A DNA stretch of 64,000 nt from Ancylobacter rudongensis (lineage in GTDB: Bacteria > Pseudomonadota > Alphaproteobacteria > Rhizobiales > Xanthobacteraceae). Below the pieces are notes generated by a model. It had not been told where the DNA came from. It worked only from the letters and a program-made list of their open reading frames with translations, and searched no databases. Shown here in pieces: positions 7,283 to 38,320 of the stretch (positions are counted from its first letter, which is position 1; each line of letters begins with the position of its first letter). The stretch lies in assembly GCF_900100155.1 (NCBI RefSeq), contig NZ_FMTP01000003.1:558001-622000 (forward strand), given 5' to 3'. The translations under genes and the position numbers were made by a program.

Positions 7283-9430
7283 TCAATTGGATCGGATCGC
7301 GCTTTCGGTCTGCGGGATGACGGTCGCCTGCGCCGCCCCTGCCGAATCGGGCTGGGCGCGCAGGCGCCCGACCCGATAGTAGAAATGCCCCTCCACCCGG
7401 CCGTTCTGCACCAGGTCACGTTGCCCCACCTCGCCTGAATCGCTGAGGTGAGCGTCCAGCAGCGGGTTGTCGATCTGGCGGCGAGTGAAGGCGAAGAGGA
7501 TGGCGGGCCGTCCCCGCAGCGTGTCGGCAGAATACCAGTAGCCATACATGAGGCTGGGCTGGTCAAGGACGCCGCGGCCGACGGAAACGCCGGGCGCGGC
7601 GCCGTTGTCGGTAGCGTAGAACGCAAGCTCGCTGGCGATGTTGTAGGTATCGAGACCGATCAGCAAGGGTGCCTCCCCGGTGGCGGTCCTCACCTCATCG
7701 GCGATCGCCGCCGCCTCTCCGCCGAAGGCGCGCCAGGCGACCGGCAGGGCAGGCACATCCGCGACATGGCCGAGCCCGGGCAGCCCGGCGACCAGGTAGT
7801 TCAGGCCGAGGCCATAGACGATCAGGCTGATGGCGAGGGTGGGCATGAAGGCGCGGTGCAGGTGCCGCTGCAGGGCGCCGGCGTGGTCTGTTGGCGCGAG
7901 AAGGCCGGCGGCGATCGCCGGGAGCACGGCCAGCCAGAGCGGCCCGGTCCAGTTCAGCCGCGCCATGTGGAACAGGCTGTAGGCGACGAAGACGGCAAGC
8001 GGCACCAGGGTGAAAAGGCCGACGAACAGCCAGGGACCCGGAAGGTCTGACTGATCACGGATGGCGCCGGGGCTCAGGCCGGGCGCCTGCGGCCGCACCC
8101 CTCGCTCGCGCAGCCAGAGCGCGGCGAAGGCGGCGACCAGCCCGGTGGGCGTCAGCAGGCCGGCGACGCCGAGCAGCAGTTCCGGCAGGGAGAAGCGGAA
8201 CGCCCCCTCGATCCGGCGCGTGCTCTGAAAGGCGAAGGAGGCAAGGCCGTTCTCGACGTTCCAGACAATGACCGGCGCGAACAGCACCAGTGCGAGGGCC
8301 GCGGCGAGATAGGGCTCGGGACGCCTGAACCAGACACGCGCCCGCGCGTCCAGCAGCATGAACAACAGGGCGGCCGGCCCGAGCAGGGCGATGGTGTATT
8401 TCGACAGGAGGCCGAGGCCGATGCAGATGCCGACGCCCCACCAGGCCCGGCGCTGTCCGCCGCGCAGCGCTCCCTCCATGAAAAACAGCGCGCCGGCCCA
8501 GCAGGCGGTGAGCGGCGCATCGGGGGTCATCACCAGGCCGGTGCCGAAGTAGAAGGGCAGCGCCGCCACCAGCAGCACGCAGACGAAGGCAGCTTGCCGC
8601 CCGAACAGGCGACCGGCGAGGCCGAAGCTGAAGAAGGCGGTCACGCCCCAGCACAGCCAGGCGGCGATGCGCACGCCAAACTCATTGTTGCCGAACAGGG
8701 CGGTGCCGGCCCAGATCAGCCATGCCACCATCGGCGGATGGTCGAGATAGCCGATATCGAGATGCTGGGCGTAGTTCCAGTAATAGGCTTCCTGCGGCAG
8801 GAGCTCGGCGGTGCCGAGAAACATGAGGCGCAGCGCCACGCTGTAGCCGACGATGCCAATGGCGGCGACACGCCAGCGCGCGGCGCCTGTCGCCGGCGAA
8901 CGGACCGAGGGAAAGACGAAGAAGGCCGCGCCGCCAGTGCTCACCACCGCCGCCGCGCCGATGGCGAAGAGGATGGCGGAGGGCGCGGGCAGGCCCAGAA
9001 GGCCGGTGGCGCAGGCCAGCACCCCGCCGCGCAGCGACAGCGCCAGCAGGGCGACGACGAGAAGGCGCGCAATGTGATCGCCGGAGCGGGGAAGCGGCTT
9101 GCCATCCTCCGCCGCGAAAGCCCAGCGGGCGTTCAGCGCAGCGTTGAAAAGGGTCGCGAGGCCGAAGCTCAGGATCTGCGCGCTGTTCAGCCCGGCTCCG
9201 AGAAGGAAGAACGCCTGGAACGCCAGGAAATCGACGGCCATTCCTGTCAAGCCGACGATGGCGACGCGCCCGATGTGGCCGGCCGGCAGAGTGCCGCCGG
9301 CCATCAGCCCAAGACGGCGCCGATACGCCGCTAGCCGAGGCGCGACGATGTCGGAGTGGCCGGGGGTCCCGGCCGCGTTCGCGTGCGGCGGCCTTCCGCA
9401 CCAGGTCGAACGATGCCCGCTGCCACCCAT
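7283..9430 (-). CDS. GtrA-like domain fused to a GT39/ArnT-type glycosyltransferase
   Basis: 715 residues. Residues ~50-175 form a GtrA-like four-helix unit (GRVAIVGLTGMAVDFLAFQAFFLL, then NARWAFA), a family thought to move undecaprenyl-phosphate-linked sugars across the membrane. From ~190 on is a dolichyl-phosphate-mannose/ArnT-like transferase: an EAYYWNYAQHLDIGYLDHPPMVAWLIW loop carrying the acidic catalytic region, about ten helices, and a C-terminal periplasmic part. The combined protein would flip a polyprenyl-linked sugar and transfer it to a lipid or glycan acceptor. The ATG at 9430 has a GAGGGG site upstream. Met43 is an alternative start closer to the first domain. The frame upstream may be a broken GT2 gene. 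Confidence 0.85.
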   Translation of the reverse strand: MGGSGHRSTWCGRPPHANAAGTPGHSDIVAPRLAAYRRRLGLMAGGTLPAGHIGRVAIVGLTGMAVDFLAFQAFFLLGAGLNSAQILSFGLATLFNAALNARWAFAAEDGKPLPRSGDHIARLLVVALLALSLRGGVLACATGLLGLPAPSAILFAIGAAAVVSTGGAAFFVFPSVRSPATGAARWRVAAIGIVGYSVALRLMFLGTAELLPQEAYYWNYAQHLDIGYLDHPPMVAWLIWAGTALFGNNEFGVRIAAWLCWGVTAFFSFGLAGRLFGRQAAFVCVLLVAALPFYFGTGLVMTPDAPLTACWAGALFFMEGALRGGQRRAWWGVGICIGLGLLSKYTIALLGPAALLFMLLDARARVWFRRPEPYLAAALALVLFAPVIVWNVENGLASFAFQSTRRIEGAFRFSLPELLLGVAGLLTPTGLVAAFAALWLRERGVRPQAPGLSPGAIRDQSDLPGPWLFVGLFTLVPLAVFVAYSLFHMARLNWTGPLWLAVLPAIAAGLLAPTDHAGALQRHLHRAFMPTLAISLIVYGLGLNYLVAGLPGLGHVADVPALPVAWRAFGGEAAAIADEVRTATGEAPLLIGLDTYNIASELAFYATDNGAAPGVSVGRGVLDQPSLMYGYWYSADTLRGRPAILFAFTRRQIDNPLLDAHLSDSGEVGQRDLVQNGRVEGHFYYRVGRLRAQPDSAGAAQATVIPQTESAIRSN

Positions 9431-9592: not shown

Positions 9593-12500
9593 TCAGAAGC
9601 GGTAATTGAGCCCGATCTTGACCGCCTGGAACGAGGCCGAGTTCGAGGCGTCGCGGCCGTCGGCGATCTCCGATGTTCCGACATAGTTCTTCGTCTCGTA
9701 AACGGGCTTCTCGATGATGTCGCAGAACCTTCCACCCCTCGTGGCGCACCCGACTTCGCTGCGGACGGCCCATACGGTGCCGATCTGGGTCGTGGTCGAG
9801 TAGGAGCGGGTGACGCCTGAACGCGCTCTGTTGAAGGTGAAGCTCTCGGCGCCAAAGCCGGCAAAGGCATACTCGGCCTTGACCGACCAGCGGTCGTTGA
9901 TGGCGAATTCCGCGCCGCCGCCGGCCGAAAAGCCGGTGCGGGTCCGGCTTGCGGATTCCGTGAAGCTCAGATTGGTCCGGCTGCCCCCCGGATTCGAGGC
10001 GGTGGCGGAGGCCGAGATGTACTGGGCGCGATCCTCGGTCTCGTGCAGGAAGGCAATGCCGGCCGTGCCATAGACCAGCCACTGGTCGTTCAGGGCATAG
10101 CCGAGCTTGGCGCGCACCGTGCTCATCCAATCGAAGGAATAGTCGGTCTGCGCCTCCGGCATGCGGTTGGCGATCAGATTGGGCCCCTCGGTCGCGCCGA
10201 GCACGCTGGAACTGCCGATATCGAGAGAGCTGATATCGGCCTCGATGCCGAACACGACATTATTGGCGAACTGGTAGTTATAGCCGACCTGCCCGCCCCA
10301 CAGACCGCCGCTGAACTCTTCATTGGCGGACTCATTGAACGCGCGGGGGGCGTAGCTGCCATCCGCCAGCGTGGTAGTGCCGTCAACCGAGCCGAAGCCA
10401 TAACCGAACGAGCCGCCGGCATAGAGGCCGGTCCAGCGCTCGCCATTCCCCCGGAGGCCGACGGGCAGCGGCGCGATCGGCTCGTCGCTGCCGAAGGTGC
10501 CGGTGAGCGTGGCCATGACCGTGCGGCCGGGGGCCGGCATGTCGGTGTTGTTCAGCGCGTCGACATAATAGGTATCGAGCAGGTTCTGCACGCTGATATC
10601 GAGGGTGAGGTGGCTGTTCAGCTTCCACTGGGCGAAGGCGTCGACCACGGTGTAGGGCTCCCACACCTTCGTCACCCAGGTGAAGAACCCGCCATCCTCC
10701 TCCACCGGGACCAGCCGCTCGCTCATATAGGTCACACGCCCGCCCAGCGTCAGCCGATCGTCCAGGAACCGCGCGCCGGCCGTCAGCGAGGCGGTGAAGC
10801 GAGGGGGAATCTGGTTGGTGAGGTAGTCGGCGGAGAGGGTGTAGTCGGTGCAGACGCCGTTCTGCTGGCAGGATTCGAAGTCGGTGTAGTAGTTGAGGCC
10901 GAACTCGGCGAAGACAGCACCGGCATCGTAGCGTCCGGAGAATTCGACACCCTTGAAGCGGACATAGTCGTAGTTGAACAGCCCCATACTGCCGTCGAAC
11001 TGGCGCCCAATATAGTTGTCGGTGGTGTTGTCGAAATAGGCGAGCTTCAGCCGCAGCTTGTCGCCCGCAAGAAGCACATCGTCGCGCAGCAGGTTGGTGC
11101 CGAACTCCCAGTTGCTGGCCTCTTCCGCCTGAAGGTCCGGGTTGAAGACCTGGTCGCTGCGGGTCTGGCTGGTTTCGCGCACGCTCGGCGGGCGGATGCC
11201 GCTCTGGTACTGGCCATAGATCTGCCAGCCCTCCAGGGGGGTCACCATCACGCTGGCGCTGGGGCTCAGGCCATCACCGGAATAGCCGGTGAACGGTTCG
11301 CCCTGGACGTTATAGGTGCTGATGCCGTTGAAGGAGGTGTTGTAGGTCAGATATTCCAGCCCGGCGGAAAGTTCGAGCCAGGTGGTGGGCTCCCATTTCA
11401 CCCGGGCGAACAGCGCGCCGACCTCGCGCTCGCCATTGGCCGGAATGGCCCAGAGCGCAACGTCCGAAAAGTCGTAGATCTGCGTCGGCCGGGCGTTCTC
11501 ATAGACATAAGAGCCGCCATAGCTCACCGCGACCGGCATGTCCGCCACCGAAAAGCGCGAGGTGTTGCTCGCGTTCACCCCGACATTCTGCGACTGCTGG
11601 TCAAGCTCCTGCAGCTCGCCGAGCGACATGAAGACGTTCGACTCTTCCGTGTTCGAGACATAGGTGTCGAGCCTGAAATCGACGAGATCGGTGCTGGTCG
11701 GCGTGTAGTGATAGCGCAGCGTGGCCTGGTTGATCTCCACCGAGGACAGCGGCAGCTGGTCGGTCACCCCGTTGCCCGCCGTGATGACGGAGGGCGACAC
11801 TTCGCCGAAGTCGTTGCCGTAGTAGAGATAGCCGATCTGCAATTGCTGCTCGTCGGTCGGTCGGAAGGTGGCCTTCAGCAGCGCCGAGGTCACGTCCTCT
11901 GAGGTGTTGTAGACCAACTGGCCATGGCCGTAGTTCGACAGCGGCACCTCATTGCCGAGATAGTCGGTGGTGGTCAGGGACCCCTGTGTGCCGGCAAAGT
12001 AATTGCCGGACTTGCGGCGGACAAAGGCGCCGATGGCGTCCACATTATCCTCGCGCACCGCGAGAGCGAAGCTGCCATTGGTGATGGCGGCCCCATCCGG
12101 GTCGCCGAACGTCGCCGCGCTCGCCCCGATTACCGGGTCGATGGAATTGGTGGCGATCCCGGCCCGCACCCGCACGCCCCAGCGCTCGCCGGCCTTGAGG
12201 ATGTCCTCGACGTTCAGGGTCTCCATCGCGATGGTGCCGCCGATGGCGCCGGCCACCGCGCCGTCCGGCCCCTTGGTGATGGTGATGCCCGAGATGAGGT
12301 CGGGGTCGACATAGGTGCGGCTGTCGATGCCGGAATAGCCGCGATAGGAGGAGGTCGATTGCTGCGAGCCGTCGATCGTGGTGGCGACGCGGTTCTGGCC
12401 CTGCAGGCCGCGAATATTCGGGTCGATCGAGGCGCCATTATTGCCGCCGCCGGAAATGACGCCGGGTGTGCCCTGGAACAACGCGCCGGCGGTCTGCGGC

Positions 12501-13015
12501 GGGAAGCGCTCGATTTCCTCGGAGGAGATATAATTGGTGGAGCCCGCCGTCTCGAAGGGCCGGTCGGCGGGCGTGCCGGTGCCGGTGACGTCGATCGTGC
12601 CGAGCTCGATCGCGCCGTCGGCACCAGCCCCCTGCACCGCCCCACCCAAGGGACCGTCTTCCCCCGGCACGAGGATCGTTACCGCCCGGGGGCCGACGAA
12701 GCGCCAGCTGATCCCTGTTCCGGCCAGCATGATGCGCAGCGCCTCCTCCGGGGGGTAAAGCCCGTTCACCGGCCGGGACATGATCTCGTAGGCCTTGGTG
12801 CCGGAGTAGAGCACCTGAAGCCCGGCGCGCACCGACAGGTCGGCAAGGGCCCGCGGCACCGGCATGGAGGCAATGGAGAGGGCGACGCTCTGGCCGCCTT
12901 GCGCATGGGCGTGCGGCACTCCGGCAGGAAGAGTCGCGAGCGCGGTTCCCGCCAGAAGGCACAGGGTCAGCAGGCGCAGGCGTCGGGTAGTCATCATCCT
13001 CATCGTCGGTCCCAC
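9593..13015 (-). CDS. TonB-dependent receptor with STN domain, fused to a C-terminal Omp25-like barrel
   Basis: 1140 residues, far longer than a usual ~750-850-residue receptor. Order: signal peptide (1-38, ending AHA); STN signalling domain (~45-100), which talks to FecR; plug (~148-265, with PNIRGLQGQNRVATTIDG); 22-strand barrel to ~840, ending in aromatic-rich PGRTVMATLTGTF; then from ~858 a second outer-membrane domain beginning WTGLYAGGSFGYG and ending VKIGLNYRF, typical of Omp25/OMP_b-brl proteins. The FNPDLQAEEASNWEFG stretch recalls the NPxL region of haem/haemophore receptors, so an iron or haem ligand is likely but unproven. FecR and FecI genes lie immediately upstream on the same strand. 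Confidence 0.93.
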   Translation of the reverse strand: MGPTMRMMTTRRLRLLTLCLLAGTALATLPAGVPHAHAQGGQSVALSIASMPVPRALADLSVRAGLQVLYSGTKAYEIMSRPVNGLYPPEEALRIMLAGTGISWRFVGPRAVTILVPGEDGPLGGAVQGAGADGAIELGTIDVTGTGTPADRPFETAGSTNYISSEEIERFPPQTAGALFQGTPGVISGGGNNGASIDPNIRGLQGQNRVATTIDGSQQSTSSYRGYSGIDSRTYVDPDLISGITITKGPDGAVAGAIGGTIAMETLNVEDILKAGERWGVRVRAGIATNSIDPVIGASAATFGDPDGAAITNGSFALAVREDNVDAIGAFVRRKSGNYFAGTQGSLTTTDYLGNEVPLSNYGHGQLVYNTSEDVTSALLKATFRPTDEQQLQIGYLYYGNDFGEVSPSVITAGNGVTDQLPLSSVEINQATLRYHYTPTSTDLVDFRLDTYVSNTEESNVFMSLGELQELDQQSQNVGVNASNTSRFSVADMPVAVSYGGSYVYENARPTQIYDFSDVALWAIPANGEREVGALFARVKWEPTTWLELSAGLEYLTYNTSFNGISTYNVQGEPFTGYSGDGLSPSASVMVTPLEGWQIYGQYQSGIRPPSVRETSQTRSDQVFNPDLQAEEASNWEFGTNLLRDDVLLAGDKLRLKLAYFDNTTDNYIGRQFDGSMGLFNYDYVRFKGVEFSGRYDAGAVFAEFGLNYYTDFESCQQNGVCTDYTLSADYLTNQIPPRFTASLTAGARFLDDRLTLGGRVTYMSERLVPVEEDGGFFTWVTKVWEPYTVVDAFAQWKLNSHLTLDISVQNLLDTYYVDALNNTDMPAPGRTVMATLTGTFGSDEPIAPLPVGLRGNGERWTGLYAGGSFGYGFGSVDGTTTLADGSYAPRAFNESANEEFSGGLWGGQVGYNYQFANNVVFGIEADISSLDIGSSSVLGATEGPNLIANRMPEAQTDYSFDWMSTVRAKLGYALNDQWLVYGTAGIAFLHETEDRAQYISASATASNPGGSRTNLSFTESASRTRTGFSAGGGAEFAINDRWSVKAEYAFAGFGAESFTFNRARSGVTRSYSTTTQIGTVWAVRSEVGCATRGGRFCDIIEKPVYETKNYVGTSEIADGRDASNSASFQAVKIGLNYRF

Positions 13016-13110: not shown

Positions 13111-14091
13111 TCATCTTAGGACGATCAGCGCGTTGGTCAGGCGCAGCGACGACACGCCGAGCGTGGCTTCGATCATGTCGATGACGGCGGCAGGATCACG
13201 CGTATCGAATACGCCGGTGACGGGGAGCGCCCGTACCCGCTCGCTGAGGATCAGGATGCGGCCGCGCTGGTAGCGGTTCAGTTCCTCGATCAGCTCGCCA
13301 AGCGGCGCGCGGAAGAACACCATCTGCCCCCGGCGCCAGGCGGTGGCGGTATCGGCCTCGAAGGGCCGGACCTGACCGAGACCATCCGGGGTGAGGACGC
13401 CTTCCTCTCCCGGGGAAAGGCGCAGCGAGGCGTCGGGATCGGCGGCGGAGGTCAGGCTGACGGCGCCCTCCACCAGGCCGACCTCGGTGACATGGTCCCG
13501 CAGCCGCACATTGAAGCTGGTGCCGGTGACGCGCACCTCGCCCTCGCCGGTCGACACCAGGAAGGGGCGCTGTGGATCAGGGGCGACCTGAAAGAACGCC
13601 TCGCCGCGGAACAGCCGGACCCGGCGCTGCCCGGGAGCGAGATCGACCGCCAGCGCGGTGTCGGTGTTCAGCTCGACCACCGAACCATCCTCAAGCCGGA
13701 TTGCCCGGTGTTCGCCGATCGAGGCGATGTGGTCGGCGCGCAGATCATCCAGCCCGCCGCGCCGCACCCATTCGGCTCCCGCTAGGGAAAGACACAGGAG
13801 CAGGCCGGCCACGAGGCCGCGCCCCAGCCTGCGGCGCGGGGCGGCGCTCTCGACCAGCGCCGTGATGGCGGCCTCGTCGCGCCGCCCGCCGGGCGCCCCG
13901 CCCATGGCCGCCCACAGCCGTTCCGCCTGCTCATAGGCCTCGAAATGGCAGGGATCGTCGGCGAGCCAGGCCTGGAACGCCGCATGGGTCTGGGCGTCGG
14001 CGTCGGGCTCGCGCAGCCGCGCATGCCATCGGCTGGCCGCCTCGAAGGCGGCATCGGCGCGTGTGGCGGGGCCGGGCCGGGACGCAGTCAT
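13111..14091 (-). CDS. FecR-family anti-sigma / signal-transducing membrane protein
   Basis: 326 residues from the ATG at 14091 (MTASRPGP). The open frame continues upstream but would overlap the sigma gene's end. The N-terminal cytoplasmic region (AASRWHARLREPDADAQTHAAFQAWLADDPCHFEAYEQAERLW) is the DUF4880 sigma-binding segment. One hydrophobic helix (GLVAGLLLCLSLAGAEWV) crosses the inner membrane. A periplasmic FecR domain follows (IRLEDGSVVELNTDTALAVDL, GEVRVTGTSFNVRL). It would relay ligand occupancy from the receptor's STN domain to the sigma factor. It sits between the sigma gene (98-bp gap) and the receptor gene (95-bp gap), all on the minus strand. Confidence 0.92.
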   Translation of the reverse strand: MTASRPGPATRADAAFEAASRWHARLREPDADAQTHAAFQAWLADDPCHFEAYEQAERLWAAMGGAPGGRRDEAAITALVESAAPRRRLGRGLVAGLLLCLSLAGAEWVRRGGLDDLRADHIASIGEHRAIRLEDGSVVELNTDTALAVDLAPGQRRVRLFRGEAFFQVAPDPQRPFLVSTGEGEVRVTGTSFNVRLRDHVTEVGLVEGAVSLTSAADPDASLRLSPGEEGVLTPDGLGQVRPFEADTATAWRRGQMVFFRAPLGELIEELNRYQRGRILILSERVRALPVTGVFDTRDPAAVIDMIEATLGVSSLRLTNALIVLR

Positions 14092-14189
14092 CAAACAACC
14101 ATCCGGAATCGAGCGGGCGGGCCGACCGTGGCCCACCGATATAGACGAAGCCGCAGCGGCCTGTCCCCCAGTCCCACCTCCACGCCCGC

Positions 14190-14750
14190 TCAGATTGCCC
14201 GCCCGGCATTGCGCAGGGCCTGACGACACTGCGTCATGGCGCGGGCGATGTGCTTCTCCACCGTCTTGTCCGACAGGCCGAGACGGGCGGCGATCTCCTT
14301 CATGGTCAGGCCATGATCGCGCGAGAGCAGAAAGACGGCGCGGCATTTCGACGGCAGCGCGTCGATGGTGCGGCGCAGGAGAGCGAGTTCCTGCACGCCT
14401 TGCAGCGTTTCGTCCGGCAGCGGCACGGTGCAGGCGACCTCGCAGTCGGCAAGGTCGGCTCCGCAGATATAGCGCGCCCGCACCCGCTCGCGCCTGAGAT
14501 GGTCGAGCGCCATATTGGTGGCGCAGCGGGCCAGATAGGCCTGCTTGTTCTCGGCATCGGCAAAGGCGTTGCCCCGCAGCAGGCCAACAAACACGTCCTG
14601 CACCAGGTCTTCCGCCGTGCTCGGGCTGCCGACCAGGCGACGCATCGCCCGCATCAAGCGATCATGCTCGGTGCGGAACAAATGGCCAAGGTCGGAGGCG
14701 AGAGCCAGCACGGGCAATCCTATGACTCCAGCAAGCAGTGCCCAGCGCAC
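14190..14750 (-). CDS. FecI-like ECF sigma factor
   Basis: ECF sigma factor with region 2 (LFRTEHDRLMRAMRRLVGSPSTAEDLVQDVFVGLL, then ARCATNMALDHLRRER) and region 4 (LRRTIDALPSKCRAVFLLSRDHGLTMKEIAARLGLSDKTVEKHIARAM). It should direct RNA polymerase to the receptor gene when FecR signals. The start is unclear: TTG at 14795 abuts a candidate Irr box, and GTG at 14750, used here, gives 186 residues. Either leaves an odd hydrophobic lead (WALLAGVIGLPVLALA) before the usual beginning (SDLGHLF), so a still later start is possible. First gene of the sigma-FecR-receptor cassette. Confidence 0.9.
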   Translation of the reverse strand: MRWALLAGVIGLPVLALASDLGHLFRTEHDRLMRAMRRLVGSPSTAEDLVQDVFVGLLRGNAFADAENKQAYLARCATNMALDHLRRERVRARYICGADLADCEVACTVPLPDETLQGVQELALLRRTIDALPSKCRAVFLLSRDHGLTMKEIAARLGLSDKTVEKHIARAMTQCRQALRNAGRAI

Positions 14751-14798
14751 CGTGAGACACTCTCTACAAAAAGTTGGATTGTCCAGCAATATCAATAG

Positions 14799-33062: not shown

Positions 33063-33105
33063 CTATTGAGTTTGCATTGTTTTTTTGTTCGCGTTAAGGC
33101 GGGGC

Positions 33106-33636
33106 ATGGGTTCTGTCTCTACCTCGTCGGCTGAACTGGACAGCCTGTTCCGGGAGTATCACCGGGAACTGGCGACATTTGCCTATCGCAAGCTGCACGA
33201 CCGGGAGGCCGCGTCCGATCTCGTGCAGGATGCGTTCGTTCGGTACATCGCCCATGTGCGGCAGACGGAGATGGCGGCCGAGAGCCCGCGCTTCTTCCTC
33301 TGGCGCATTGCCAGCAACCTCCTGCTCGATCTTGCCCGCCGCGAGCGGCGGCGCGGTCAGATGGTTGCCCTTGATGCCGTCGCGCCGCACGAGCTGTCGG
33401 ACAACGCGCCGTCGGCCGAGCGACGCCTCTCGGCGCGTCAGGAGTACCGGGCGCTGCGGCAGGCGCTCGACGAACTGCCGGCCAAGGCCCGGACCGCGCT
33501 GCTGCTCAACCGGGTCGAGCGTCTCACCCATGCGCAGATCGCCATCCGGCTCGGCGTCTCGCCGAGCATGGTCAACAAGTATATTTCGCGGGCGCTCGGC
33601 CATTGCCTCGCGCGGCTCAGTGAAGCCGGCTTCTAG
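33106..33636 (+). CDS. FecI-like ECF sigma factor (second cassette)
   Basis: 176 residues from the ATG at 33106, preceded by AAGGCGGGG. A TTG seven codons earlier is less convincing. Region 2 is LFREYHRELATFAYRKLHDREAASDLVQDAFVRYI with IASNLLLDLARRERRR. Region 4 is LRQALDELPAKARTALLLNRVERLTHAQIAIRLGVSPSMVNKYISRAL. It is expected to transcribe the receptor gene at 34754 when released by FecR. Gene order is sigma, FecR, receptor, mirroring the cassette at 9593-14750 on the other strand. Sequence similarity to that sigma factor is only general, so this is not a recent tandem duplicate. Confidence 0.92.
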   Translation: MGSVSTSSAELDSLFREYHRELATFAYRKLHDREAASDLVQDAFVRYIAHVRQTEMAAESPRFFLWRIASNLLLDLARRERRRGQMVALDAVAPHELSDNAPSAERRLSARQEYRALRQALDELPAKARTALLLNRVERLTHAQIAIRLGVSPSMVNKYISRALGHCLARLSEAGF

Positions 33637-33701: not shown

Positions 33702-34631
33702 ATGAGGCGCAGGGCGCGTGCTGCCACCACCAACGACCCGCTGACGGAGCGCGCGCTTTCCTGGCTGGTCCGTCTGCATTCGGGCAGCGAGACGGAGCAG
33801 GACTGGCTCGCCTATCACGAGTGGAAGATGGCGCATCCGAGCCATGCCGAGGCCGCCGCGCGTGCGGAACATGTCTGGAGCCGCCTCGGCCCGGCCTTGA
33901 AGCCGCCGCCCCGGCCTGGATGGAAGGCGGCGGGCGCGCTGGTGCTGGTCGTTGCTCTCGCCGGCGCGGGTGCGTCCGGATCCTTCTCCAGCTGGTTTGC
34001 CGATCAGGCCACGTCGGTGGGGGAAATCCGCACCGTCACGCTCGACGACGGGTCTTCCGTGGTCATGGATTCCGCGACCAGCCTTGATGTCGATTTCGGC
34101 GGTAGCCAGCGGCGTATCCGCGTGCTGGACGGCCAGGTCTTCGTCACCGTCGCCGCCGACGCCTCGCGCCCCTTCCTCGTCGATGCGGGCGAGGGCGAGG
34201 TGCGGGCGCTCGGCACCGCCTTCAACATACGCCGGGACGGCGCCCGCACGGATGTGAGCGTCACCCAGCATGCCGTCCGCGTCTCGCTGGAGTCGGCAGG
34301 CAGTGTCGAGGTCCGCGAGGGACAGGGTGTCGACTTCGCCCCGGCGACGGGGCTTAGCGCCCCGCGCGCGGTCGATATCGAGCAGGTGACGGCGTGGCGG
34401 AAGGGCGAAATCCTGTTCGATGGCCGCCCGCTCGGCGAGGTCGTCAATGAAATGGGGCGGTACCGGCGCGGCACCGTCTTCTTCATCGACGATAAACTCA
34501 AGCAACTTCCCGTCACCGGCATCTTCTCGACCCATGATACCGATGATTTCTTCCTGGCGCTTGAGCAGACATTGCCGGTGCGTGTCACGCGCCTGCCCTA
34601 TCTCATCTTGATCGGGCCCGTGTCTGAATAG
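33702..34631 (+). CDS. FecR-family anti-sigma / signal-transducing protein (second cassette)
   Basis: 309 residues. The cytoplasmic N-terminus (ALSWLVRLHSGSETEQDWLAYHEWKMAHPSHAEAAARAEHVW) is the DUF4880 sigma-contact region. A single helix (AAGALVLVVALAGAGASGSF) follows, then the periplasmic FecR domain (VTLDDGSSVVMDSATSLDVDF, GEVRALGTAFNIRR) and the C-terminal STN-like part (GRPLGEVVNEMGRYRRGTVFFID) that contacts the receptor. The ATG at 33702 is 66 bp after the sigma stop. The receptor gene follows 122 bp downstream. Role: relays receptor occupancy to the sigma factor. Confidence 0.92.
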   Translation: MRRRARAATTNDPLTERALSWLVRLHSGSETEQDWLAYHEWKMAHPSHAEAAARAEHVWSRLGPALKPPPRPGWKAAGALVLVVALAGAGASGSFSSWFADQATSVGEIRTVTLDDGSSVVMDSATSLDVDFGGSQRRIRVLDGQVFVTVAADASRPFLVDAGEGEVRALGTAFNIRRDGARTDVSVTQHAVRVSLESAGSVEVREGQGVDFAPATGLSAPRAVDIEQVTAWRKGEILFDGRPLGEVVNEMGRYRRGTVFFIDDKLKQLPVTGIFSTHDTDDFFLALEQTLPVRVTRLPYLILIGPVSE

Positions 34632-34753: not shown

Positions 34754-37700
34754 ATGAGGCGCGACGGCAGGGGCATTTTCCGCAAGGCGCGCCTGGCGCT
34801 TTTTCTCGGATCCACGGCCTTGGCGACGGCGGGCCATGGGGCCCCGGCAATCGCCCAGCAGCAGGTTTCCTACAACATCCCGGCGGGAAGCCTCGGCCTC
34901 GCGCTCACCACCTGGGCGCGTGCCTCGGGCATGAAGTTCCTCGCCTCCTCGCAGGTGCTGAGCGGGCAGCGCACGCAGGGGCTTTCGGGCAGCTACGCTC
35001 CCCACCAGGCGCTTGACGCGCTGCTGCGGGGAACCAACCTCGCCTACAATATCAGCGGCTCCACCGCGACGATCAGCGACCCCGGCCAAAGTGGAGCCGG
35101 GAGCGGCGCTTCCGACGACGTCGTCGTGCTGGACGTCATCACCGTGTCCGATGCCGGCAATCCGGTCTACCGGCCATTCGAGACGGCGGCGCCGGTGGCC
35201 TATATCTCGCAGGAGACCATTGAGCGTTTTCGCGGCAGCAGCCCGGCCGATATTTTCCGTGGCACGCCGGGCGTGATGTCGGGCGAGGCGCGCAATGGTG
35301 CCGGCGCCATTGATGTCAACATCCGCGGCATGCAGGGCTTCGGCCGTGTCGCCACCACGATCGACGGCGCCGAGAACGGCGTCACTGTCTATCAGGGCTA
35401 TCAGGGCCTCTCGAACCGGACCTATGTCGACCCCGATCTGCTGGCCGGCATCGAGATCACCAAGGGATCGGACGTCGCCTCGCGCGGCATCGCCGGCACG
35501 GTGACGATGCGTACGCTCGACGCCGGCGACATCGTCAAGCCGGGCGAAACCTGGGGCGTGCGCGTCAAGGGCGAGTTCGGCACCAACTCGGCGGAGCCTG
35601 AGGCGGGCGCGAAGGGGGGCTATCTCTGGCCGTCCACGCCGTGGTCCGCTCCCGTCGCGGTGCCCTCCGCCTCCGGCATGGACCGGCCCGGCCCCTTCGA
35701 CCCCAGGAACGGCTCGGCCAGTTTCGCGGCGGGCGTGAAGGAGGAAAACTACGATCTCTTCGCGGCCTATGCTTATCGCAACCGTGGCAATTACTTCGCC
35801 GGCACGAACGGACCGGGGGCCAGCCCGGTCAATACCGGGCCGAAATCCGTCTGCGGCACCTATGTCTGCACCGACTGGCCAAGCTATGTCGACAATACGG
35901 GTCTCACCAATTACCGCGCCGGCGAGGAGGTGCTGAACACGCAGCTTGAAACGGAATCCTGGATCACCAAGGCAACCGTGCGGTTCGGCGACGGCCACAG
36001 CCTGCAGGCGGGCTATACGGGCTATCGCGCCGAGGCCGGCGACCTGCTGGCCTCGCGCTTCACCGGCGAACGCGGCCAGCCCAGGCAGCAGAACCAGTCG
36101 GCCGGCACGACCGTCGATACCGGCACGCTGCGCTATCGCTGGAACCCCGAGGACAACGACCTGATCGACCTCAAGTCCAACCTGTGGACGACGCGGCTGG
36201 AACTGCGCAATCCGAGGCGGGGCTCGACCATACCCACGCCGGAATCGATCGGCCTGCCGGCCGGCTACCGCACCGGCTCGGACACGGTGATGTGGGGCGC
36301 CGACGCGACCAACACCGCGCATCTCGGTTTTGAGCAGTACGGCGCGCTCGATCTCACCAGCGGCGTGTCCTATCTCAGCGAGGATACGCGGCCGAGCGGC
36401 TATTCCCAGGCCCTGGAAGGCTGGCTCAACCTGCGCGACGCCCAGCGCGAGGAAGCGGCGGTGTTCAGCAAGGTGGCCTACCAGCCACTCGACTGGCTGA
36501 CGCTCAATGCCGGCCTGCGCTATTCGCATTACTGGTCCGACGACCGCTCCACCAATTCCAACAGCTCCTATGTGAACCCGGAGCCGCAGCGCGACGAAGG
36601 CGGCTTCAGCCCGTCGGTCGGCGTGACGGTGGAGCCGGTCGACGGCGCGCAGTTCTATGTCAACTATTCGAATGCGCTGCGCTTCCCGAGCCTGTTCGAG
36701 GCCGGCTCCGCCTTCACCATCATTCCCAATCCCGATCTGAAGCCCGAGCGTTCCAGCAATTGGGAAGTCGGCGTCAACTATGTCAGGGACGGCCTCTTCG
36801 CGGCGGAAGACCAGGGAATGCTGAAGTTCAGCTATTTCAACTGGGACGTGAAGGACTATGTCACGCGCGAGTTCCGTGCCTTCCAGGGCGACGGGTATGA
36901 ATGGTACGGCATGCAGGTCTACAATATCGACCGGGCGAAGTTCGCGGGCCTCGAATTCTCCGCCCTCTATCAAAATGCCGGCTTCACCGCCGCATTCGGC
37001 GCGAATTACTATCTCGACATCGAATATTGCCGCACCGCCAACAATTGCGACAGCAAGACGCTTTATGGCGACTACGCCACCAACCAGGTGCCGCCGGAAT
37101 ATATGGTGAACCTGACCGTGTCGCAGAAATTCCTGGACGACGCGCTGACGCTGGGCGGGCAGGTCTCCTATATCGGCCCGCGCGCCATCGGCCACGGCCA
37201 GGTGACGGCGCAGGGCGCCGCCCAGTTCATCACGCAGATCAACTGGAAGCCCTATGTGCTGGTGGACCTGTTCGCCGAGTACAAGATCAACGATGACCTT
37301 ACGGCGAGCCTCCGCGTCGAGAATGTGACGGACGAGTATTATGTCGATCCGCTGGGGCTGGTGAATCAGCCCGGTCCGGGGCGCACCTTCTATGCCGGCC
37401 TGACCGGCCGATTTGGCGGCGACCAGAAGCCGCCCACGCTCATGCCGCCGCTCAGGAGCGCGGGGCAGGGGGTGGACTGGACCGGCCTTTATGCCGGCTT
37501 CCACGCCGGCGGGGTTCTGGCCCATATCGATGGCACCACCACGACACTGAACGGGCTGCCGAGCGCCATCGCCGCCACCGAATCCGCAGATCTCGATCTC
37601 GGCGACAACTATCTCTGGGGCGTTCAGGGCGGCTTCAACTACCAGCTGGCGAACGGTTTCGTATTCGGCATGGAAGCCGATGTCAGCAAGACCTATCTCA

Positions 37701-38320
37701 GCGGTTCGCAAAAGGCCTTGGCGACCGAAGGCGCGCTGGCCGGCACCGACATGCTGCAGGCGGAGACGCGCTACGACATCGACCTGATGGCGAGCCTGCG
37801 CGGCCGCATCGGCTATGCCTTCGACAACGGATTGTTCCTGTATGCGACCGGCGGCGCGGCGTTTGCCAGGGAGAACATGAAGCGCGACCAGTATATCTCG
37901 GCCGACGCCTGGGGGTCGGATTCCTACGGCACGTCCACCAAGATCTTCTCGACGGAAAGCGTGAAGATCGATCGCACCGGCTGGACGATCGGCGGCGGCG
38001 CCGAATACGCCATTAACGACCGCTGGTCGATCAAGGCCGACTACACCTTCACCCGCTTCGCGGCCAGGACGGCCACCTTCGCCAATGCGCGAGCGGGGGT
38101 TGGCAAGGACTATACGACGAGGGAACGGACCGGCACGACGATCGAGCCTCCAAACGAGTTCCTGTGCGAAATACTCGGCGGCGATTTCTGCCTGCCAACC
38201 GAAACCCCCGTTTACACCACCACCACCCATCCCGGCAGTTCCAGCATCGCAAATGGCCGCAGCGCCTCAGACTCGCTCGACCTGCACATGGTCAAGGTCG
38301 GCTTGAACTATCGCTTCTGA
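34754..38320 (+). CDS. TonB-dependent receptor with STN domain, fused to a C-terminal Omp25-like barrel (second copy)
   Basis: 1188 residues. Order: signal region (1-36, ending AIAQ), STN (~40-100, AGSLGLALTTWARASGMKFL), plug (~140-260, DVNIRGMQGFGRVATTIDGA), TonB-receptor barrel to ~890 (ending GRTFYAGLTGRF), a proline-rich linker, then from ~907 an Omp25-type domain (VDWTGLYAGFHAGGVLAHIDG) ending MVKVGLNYRF. The ALRFPSLFEAG...NPDLKPERSSNWEVG stretch fits haem-receptor FRAP/NPxL motifs. It has the same architecture as the protein at 9593-13015, with moderate similarity throughout. The ligand is unknown; iron or haem is the likeliest. FecI and FecR genes precede it in the same direction. Confidence 0.93.
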   Translation: MRRDGRGIFRKARLALFLGSTALATAGHGAPAIAQQQVSYNIPAGSLGLALTTWARASGMKFLASSQVLSGQRTQGLSGSYAPHQALDALLRGTNLAYNISGSTATISDPGQSGAGSGASDDVVVLDVITVSDAGNPVYRPFETAAPVAYISQETIERFRGSSPADIFRGTPGVMSGEARNGAGAIDVNIRGMQGFGRVATTIDGAENGVTVYQGYQGLSNRTYVDPDLLAGIEITKGSDVASRGIAGTVTMRTLDAGDIVKPGETWGVRVKGEFGTNSAEPEAGAKGGYLWPSTPWSAPVAVPSASGMDRPGPFDPRNGSASFAAGVKEENYDLFAAYAYRNRGNYFAGTNGPGASPVNTGPKSVCGTYVCTDWPSYVDNTGLTNYRAGEEVLNTQLETESWITKATVRFGDGHSLQAGYTGYRAEAGDLLASRFTGERGQPRQQNQSAGTTVDTGTLRYRWNPEDNDLIDLKSNLWTTRLELRNPRRGSTIPTPESIGLPAGYRTGSDTVMWGADATNTAHLGFEQYGALDLTSGVSYLSEDTRPSGYSQALEGWLNLRDAQREEAAVFSKVAYQPLDWLTLNAGLRYSHYWSDDRSTNSNSSYVNPEPQRDEGGFSPSVGVTVEPVDGAQFYVNYSNALRFPSLFEAGSAFTIIPNPDLKPERSSNWEVGVNYVRDGLFAAEDQGMLKFSYFNWDVKDYVTREFRAFQGDGYEWYGMQVYNIDRAKFAGLEFSALYQNAGFTAAFGANYYLDIEYCRTANNCDSKTLYGDYATNQVPPEYMVNLTVSQKFLDDALTLGGQVSYIGPRAIGHGQVTAQGAAQFITQINWKPYVLVDLFAEYKINDDLTASLRVENVTDEYYVDPLGLVNQPGPGRTFYAGLTGRFGGDQKPPTLMPPLRSAGQGVDWTGLYAGFHAGGVLAHIDGTTTTLNGLPSAIAATESADLDLGDNYLWGVQGGFNYQLANGFVFGMEADVSKTYLSGSQKALATEGALAGTDMLQAETRYDIDLMASLRGRIGYAFDNGLFLYATGGAAFARENMKRDQYISADAWGSDSYGTSTKIFSTESVKIDRTGWTIGGGAEYAINDRWSIKADYTFTRFAARTATFANARAGVGKDYTTRERTGTTIEPPNEFLCEILGGDFCLPTETPVYTTTTHPGSSSIANGRSASDSLDLHMVKVGLNYRF

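Follow-up and report, generated by a model that had tools for sequence, protein, structure and literature searches.

The question raised by this locus is how a single polypeptide comes to carry two outer-membrane barrels and what the second one might do. The gene concerned encodes a TonB-dependent receptor, one of the surface proteins by which bacteria sense and take up nutrients, and lies at positions 9593-13015 on the minus strand of a 64,000-nucleotide stretch of Ancylobacter rudongensis DNA (contig NZ_FMTP01000003.1, positions 558,001 to 622,000), which as a whole is called the window here. A sequence-only reading of this DNA had held that the receptor barrel ends near residue 840 and that the chain then continues in the same frame for about 280 residues as a complete Omp25/OMP_b-brl domain, and both points were borne out. 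The open reading frame (ORF) begins with GTG, encodes 1140 amino acids and has no internal stop, and the four Pfam domains for which a search had been proposed were all matched, in order and above their curated cut-offs, namely STN at residues 66-114 (12674-12820; PF07660, 30.2 bits compared to a cut-off of 28.4), Plug at 154-261 (12233-12556; PF07715, E 1.3e-16), TonB_dep_Rec_b-barrel at 397-812 (PF00593, E 1.6e-42) and OMP_b-brl at 858-1056. Ahead of these is a probable signal peptide at residues 1-39 (12899-13015), judged from the sequence and from a predicted local distance difference test (pLDDT) score below 50 at residues 1-40. The structures described here are predictions from AlphaFold models of the full-length protein and of the second barrel alone. 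In the full-length model the HasR-like receptor barrel spans residues 279-841 (10493-12181) and has 22 strands, counted by hand with the short loop strands excluded, and it ends at Phe841 (PGRTVMATLTGTF). It is followed by a periplasmic linker of 19 residues, 842-860 (10436-10492), with pLDDT below 50 at 845-857, and then by an OmpA-like barrel of eight strands, residues 861-1140 (9596-10435), that runs from WTGLYAGG to VKIGLNYRF and has a long last extracellular loop at residues 1062-1120 (9656-9832). In the structure prediction that had been suggested as a check the C-terminal part closes on itself, and the idea that it completes the receptor barrel was rejected for that reason. All four Pfam domains were found in each of 41 fused proteins scanned (E 0.001), which are a selection from those fetched. 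The domain matches, the two AlphaFold models and dozens of intact homologues thus support one chain with two barrels that are predicted to close separately.

If a missing stop codon or a frameshift had merged a receptor gene with an adjacent Omp25 gene, intact fused frames would not be expected to recur, and this explanation was rejected as very nearly impossible. Of the 25 genomes of the genus (its own included), 8 together hold 17 fused genes, all of them intact and full-length, and the stop codon between the domains that would have spoken for two genes is absent from all 17 and from 50 of 78 database loci. The genome set consisted of 41 genomes, and in the 16 outside the genus no fused gene was found among the matches listed. 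The database loci came from a contig scan that gave 313 stretches, of which the best 80 were kept, making 78 loci; besides the 50 intact fusions these are 25 single receptors, one fusion with a frameshifted end (L064) and two loci cut by contig ends. The count by taxon that had been called for places the fused genes in several alphaproteobacterial families, including Xanthobacteraceae, Nitrobacteraceae, Hyphomicrobiaceae, Rhizobiaceae, Brucellaceae, Methylobacteriaceae, Caulobacteraceae, Erythrobacteraceae and Sphingosinicellaceae, and a plasmid of Ketogulonicigenium (Rhodobacterales) also carries one. Among 1056 plasmid records with a match, 8 have one that extends over 80% or more of the protein, and the three that were examined each have one annotated coding sequence labelled just 'TonB-dependent receptor', which is why the second barrel is easily overlooked. 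In evenly drawn samples, where up to seven candidates were scored per genome so that the counts are lower bounds, a match to a junction profile that was complete or fell short by no more than two positions was obtained in at least 1 of 385 genomes from the class, at least 3 of 397 from the order and at least 1 of 398 from the phylum. One Xanthobacteraceae genome (G401) matched this profile partially and holds a separate fusion. From the locus, plasmid and even-sample counts the fusion is widespread yet rare and patchy. At the 25 single-receptor loci no ORF of 150 or more amino acids matching the barrel profile (E 1e-8) was found in the fetched DNA, in a scan that includes one row (L078) with a misplaced cut point, as do the receptor-column and histidine counts below; at these loci, therefore, the barrel is not just encoded separately alongside the receptor.

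The sequence-only reading had supposed that one chain would present two terminal signals to the beta-barrel assembly machinery (BAM), and this was not borne out. Single receptors end ten residues past a PGR motif in 21 of 22 cases and the fused proteins continue from the same point through a linker of 18-32 residues (median 23 in 53 proteins). The sole exception, L100, ends three residues later with GGE, which resembles the usual start of the fused linker, and this receptor may be a fusion that later lost its barrel. A passage of PMC10945584 gives the BAM beta-signal consensus as polar-x-Gly-x-x-aromatic/hydrophobic-x-aromatic/hydrophobic. All 53 fused proteins match it in the last strand of the second barrel and have Phe as their true C-terminal residue, whereas the last strand of the receptor matches it in only 1 of 53, compared to 7 of 22 single receptors. 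This receptor strand keeps its final Phe in 32 of 53 fused proteins and in 21 of 22 single receptors (Fisher p 0.002, uncorrected for relatedness). By these counts the chain has one canonical signal, at its very end, and not two equal ones.

The second barrel is not an ordinary member of its family. It was compared, along with 48 other fused barrels, to 16 stand-alone barrels, with the outliers L074, L080, L084 and L086 left out. W861, G863, Y865, R968 and G972 are common to the window barrel and the stand-alone members. Of 67 positions conserved at 75% or more across the 49 fused barrels, 24 are fused-specific, that is, present in at most one quarter of the stand-alone barrels. R996 and Q998 occur in 49/49 fused and 1/16 stand-alone barrels and R1121 in 49/49 and 0/16, and other such residues include E895, E943, E992, E1020, R1026 and R1065. 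Going by the alternation of residues along the strands, most of them probably face the barrel interior or its mouth at the extracellular end. Most of the stand-alone barrels lack positions 1005-1012, in the loop before the last, and at least 70% of them lack positions 1071-1118 of the last loop itself. In the model of the second barrel alone the last loop is a beta-hairpin with block pLDDT values of 83-97; no sequence in the PDB related to the barrel profile was found at E 0.01. By computation, then, this is a specialised version of an Omp25-family barrel: its last loop is long, and its extracellular side bears a conserved cluster of charged residues.

The setting of the gene is that of a signalling receptor. 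Upstream on the same strand are a gene for a FecI-type extracytoplasmic function (ECF) sigma factor (14190-14795; Sigma70_r2 and r4_2) and then one for a FecR-type anti-sigma regulator (13111-14346; PF04773, E 1.1e-22, with DUF4880 at residues 102-144), the true start of which is probably inside the ORF. Both genes lie within 3.5 kb upstream in 46 of 51 fused loci, and in the remaining 5, where some flanks are short, one of the two is present; of the 22 single-receptor loci, 19 have both. A scan for promoters and terminators gave 1 site resembling a promoter (0.8 expected) and 3 resembling a terminator (2.0 expected). With STN, plug and a 22-stranded barrel and with the adjoining ECF sigma and FecR-type genes, the protein has the features of a TonB-dependent transducer. 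It has been described in a passage of PMC12670364 that the hxuIRA operon has this sigma-regulator-receptor set and that the has system is similar, and contact of the receptor signalling domain with the regulator is known from PupB-PupR, as stated in part of PMC7186176. The N-terminal 841 residues would work as a HasR/HxuA-like receptor whose STN domain reports ligand binding to the adjoining FecR-type regulator, which would free the FecI-type sigma factor and so switch the operon on. The flexible linker would cross the periplasm into the complete second barrel, and the two barrels would be neighbours in the outer membrane, in a ratio fixed at 1:1.

How the fusion arose was examined with quick trees of the receptor and barrel parts. 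On the receptor tree the fused/single label requires 10 changes, at least 9 of them forced by starred branches. On the barrel tree two long-branched stand-alone barrels (L118 and L119) form one group with the 49 fused barrels, at a support of 96, the other 14 stand-alone barrels are separate, L074, L084 and L086 and also L080 are placed elsewhere, and the label requires 4 changes, at least 2 of them forced. Distances in the two trees are correlated (r 0.45; 0 of 2000 permutations as high), and the nearest neighbour agrees between them for 32 of 53 proteins. Both the receptor part and the second barrel are under purifying selection (nine pairs). The simplest reading would be one main old fusion followed by repeated loss of the barrel, some horizontal spread and a few separate fusions.

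The architecture, its conservation, the operon and the specialisation of the second barrel are all computed results, and the reading that we prefer, to which we give a probability of roughly 0.55, is that the protein is a two-barrel TonB-dependent transducer whose second barrel is a tethered partner handling ligand at the mouth of the receptor. The second barrel would be a covalently attached surface partner that captures or screens ligand and that also supplies the sole canonical BAM signal. Among the roles of gate, partner or anchor that had been put forward for it, the evidence weakly favours partner. More tentatively, the small barrel could capture ligand with its long loop and charged mouth and pass it to the receptor in the same chain, or gate that receptor, coupled to the sigma signalling; in a composite receptor of this kind the small barrel would be the equivalent of a lipoprotein co-receptor (SusD and TbpB are examples), but embedded in the membrane and covalently tethered. 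Several observations weigh against the partner reading. The tip of the long loop, residues 1081-1100, has block pLDDT values of only 70 and 55 in the full-length model, and that model, with its predicted template modelling score of 0.66 and its flexible linker, does not fix the placement of the barrels relative to each other. A docking face on the receptor part was sought among its conserved columns and not found, because almost none of the receptor residues are fused-specific (4 of 210 columns compared to single receptors, at a looser threshold); the stand-alone barrels are, however, more distant from the fused barrels than the single receptors are from the fused receptors, so that the two specificity counts are unequal tests. 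For 21 of the 53 proteins the two trees disagree on the nearest neighbour. Several receptors nested among the fused ones have no second barrel, and it is therefore dispensable in some lineages.

That the second barrel is instead an assembly or stability module, which contributes a strong C-terminal signal along with a readily folding barrel, recruits BAM or stabilises the receptor and has no ligand role, would agree with the position of the chain's only canonical signal, at the end of the second barrel in all 53 proteins, and with the relaxed final Phe of the receptor strand. We nevertheless consider it unlikely, as single relatives do without a second barrel, the receptor strand fits the consensus poorly in most single receptors too, and the fused-specific extracellular loop and charged cluster are left unexplained. 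Just as unlikely, in our estimate, is a neutral or weakly useful accretion, in which abundant Omp25-type barrels fuse easily to outer-membrane proteins and no special mechanism is involved. Other multi-barrel chains of the Omp25 type do exist (L139, L140, L141, L142, L144 and L147, described below), the label changes on the receptor tree are many and full junctions are rare in the even samples, but against accretion stand the spread across several alphaproteobacterial families and orders, the purifying selection on the second barrel and the derived features shared within the one main group of fused barrels. Somewhat less probable still is heme capture, by which the second barrel would act like Omp31, HbpA and Pap31 and hand heme to the HasR-like receptor; passages of PMC9728373 and PMC8877253 describe these three proteins as binding hemin or taking part in heme acquisition. 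The receptor scores 343 against a cut-off of 317 for TIGR01785, the NCBIfam heme/hemoglobin receptor family, and HasR is its best PDB match at 456 bits, the next other receptor being at 190. HasR has a bis-His pair of heme ligands, His189 in the plug loop and His603 in loop L7, and by an alignment-based count His is absent from both places in the window protein; a His near these places was found in 3 and 10 of 53 fused proteins, respectively. Tyr227, beside the plug ligand place, is present in 75 of 75 proteins. HemS had no match in the genome while its control did match; the hemophore HasA had no match either, but its control likewise matched nowhere. Because of the missing histidines and the unmatched HemS, heme as the substrate is weakened, as far as sequence can tell. 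A common substrate deduced from conserved neighbours was rejected too, as the flanking genes vary between loci: downstream of the receptor the three annotated plasmid loci have, respectively, FhuB/FhuF and a siderophore receptor, a glycoside hydrolase and an ABC transporter, and cytochrome bd.

Compared to known systems, HasR and HxuA share with the window protein the STN, plug and barrel and the adjoining ECF sigma and anti-sigma genes. HasR ends at the receptor barrel, as HxuA does, whereas the window protein goes on into a second barrel and is without the bis-His heme ligands. The sequence-only reading had called a two-barrel chain unusual, and unusual it is, though not unprecedented, as outer-membrane proteins built of two or more barrel domains are a described class, for which passages of PMC11494523 and PMC8592465 both cite Solan et al. 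2021. Multi-barrel proteins such as GfcD and YjbH likewise have several barrels per chain, but GfcD has 12 and 13 strands around a middle domain, unlike the transducer with an eight-stranded barrel described here. According to the abstract of Solan et al. 2021, combinations with eight-stranded barrels reportedly prevail, and the protein described here would agree with that. The second barrel shares with Omp25/Omp31 (PF13505) its Pfam match and eight-stranded fold and differs in standing behind a receptor in one chain, in its longer last loop and in its fused-specific charged residues; OmpA carries a periplasmic peptidoglycan-binding domain, and none was seen in the window protein. In phrase searches of titles and the starts of abstracts, a scope outside which Solan et al. 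2021 fell, no description of a TonB receptor fused to a second barrel was recognised. What may be new here is the joining of a signalling TonB receptor to a specialised eight-stranded barrel, the multi-barrel class itself being known, and to the original observation are added the operon context, two further copies, the relaxed receptor signal beside a canonical terminal one, and the loop and charged cluster that are specific to the fused barrels. The protein offers a natural, conserved substrate for the question of how BAM handles two barrels in one chain with a canonical signal on the last strand only, and the single-barrel relatives within the same clades are natural controls. A barrel fixed 1:1 to its receptor may also be a new layer in TonB-dependent import and surface signalling.

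A second fused receptor gene, for 1188 amino acids with the same four Pfam domains, is in the window at 34754-38320 on the plus strand, and its product shares 39% identity with the first over almost the whole length. It too is preceded on its strand by genes for an ECF sigma factor (33085-33636; Sigma70_r2 and r4_2) and a FecR-type regulator (33702-34631; PF04773, E 4.2e-19), and upstream of the set are ABC transporter genes and those for two luciferase-like monooxygenases. A third fused copy is elsewhere in the genome (G000 C8). In another genome of the genus (G016) a different fused receptor gene is split, the two parts being about 20 kb apart on opposite strands (L026 4555-5818 and L027 7071-8334) with an identical inverted repeat of 1264 bp at both break points that looks like an insertion element.

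Omp25-type barrels were also seen in other combinations. In L142 (1023-4238, plus strand), from a Xanthobacteraceae genome, a TonB-dependent receptor without STN is joined to OMP_b-brl, a clear separate fusion. L140 (827-2347) and L141 (812-2236) each have two tandem matches to the Omp25-type barrel profile per chain, and Pfam shows two stretches in each, while L144 (1592-4096) has three tandem matches and only a weak OmpA match in Pfam. A receptor fusion suspected in another genome of the genus (G024), from a barrel match in a long frame, was rejected, as the chain is of Omp25-type barrels with no TonB receptor; this chain, L147 (1237-4221, plus strand), has 994 amino acids and three OMP_b-brl stretches with barrel-like sequence between them. 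In L139 (201-2243, minus strand), and also in L138, an Omp25-type barrel stands ahead of an OprB carbohydrate porin in a two-barrel design, the Pfam scan covering L139 only. Finally, a single ORF of 715 amino acids in the window (7283-9430, minus strand) joins a GtrA-type membrane domain to a PMT_2 glycosyltransferase domain.
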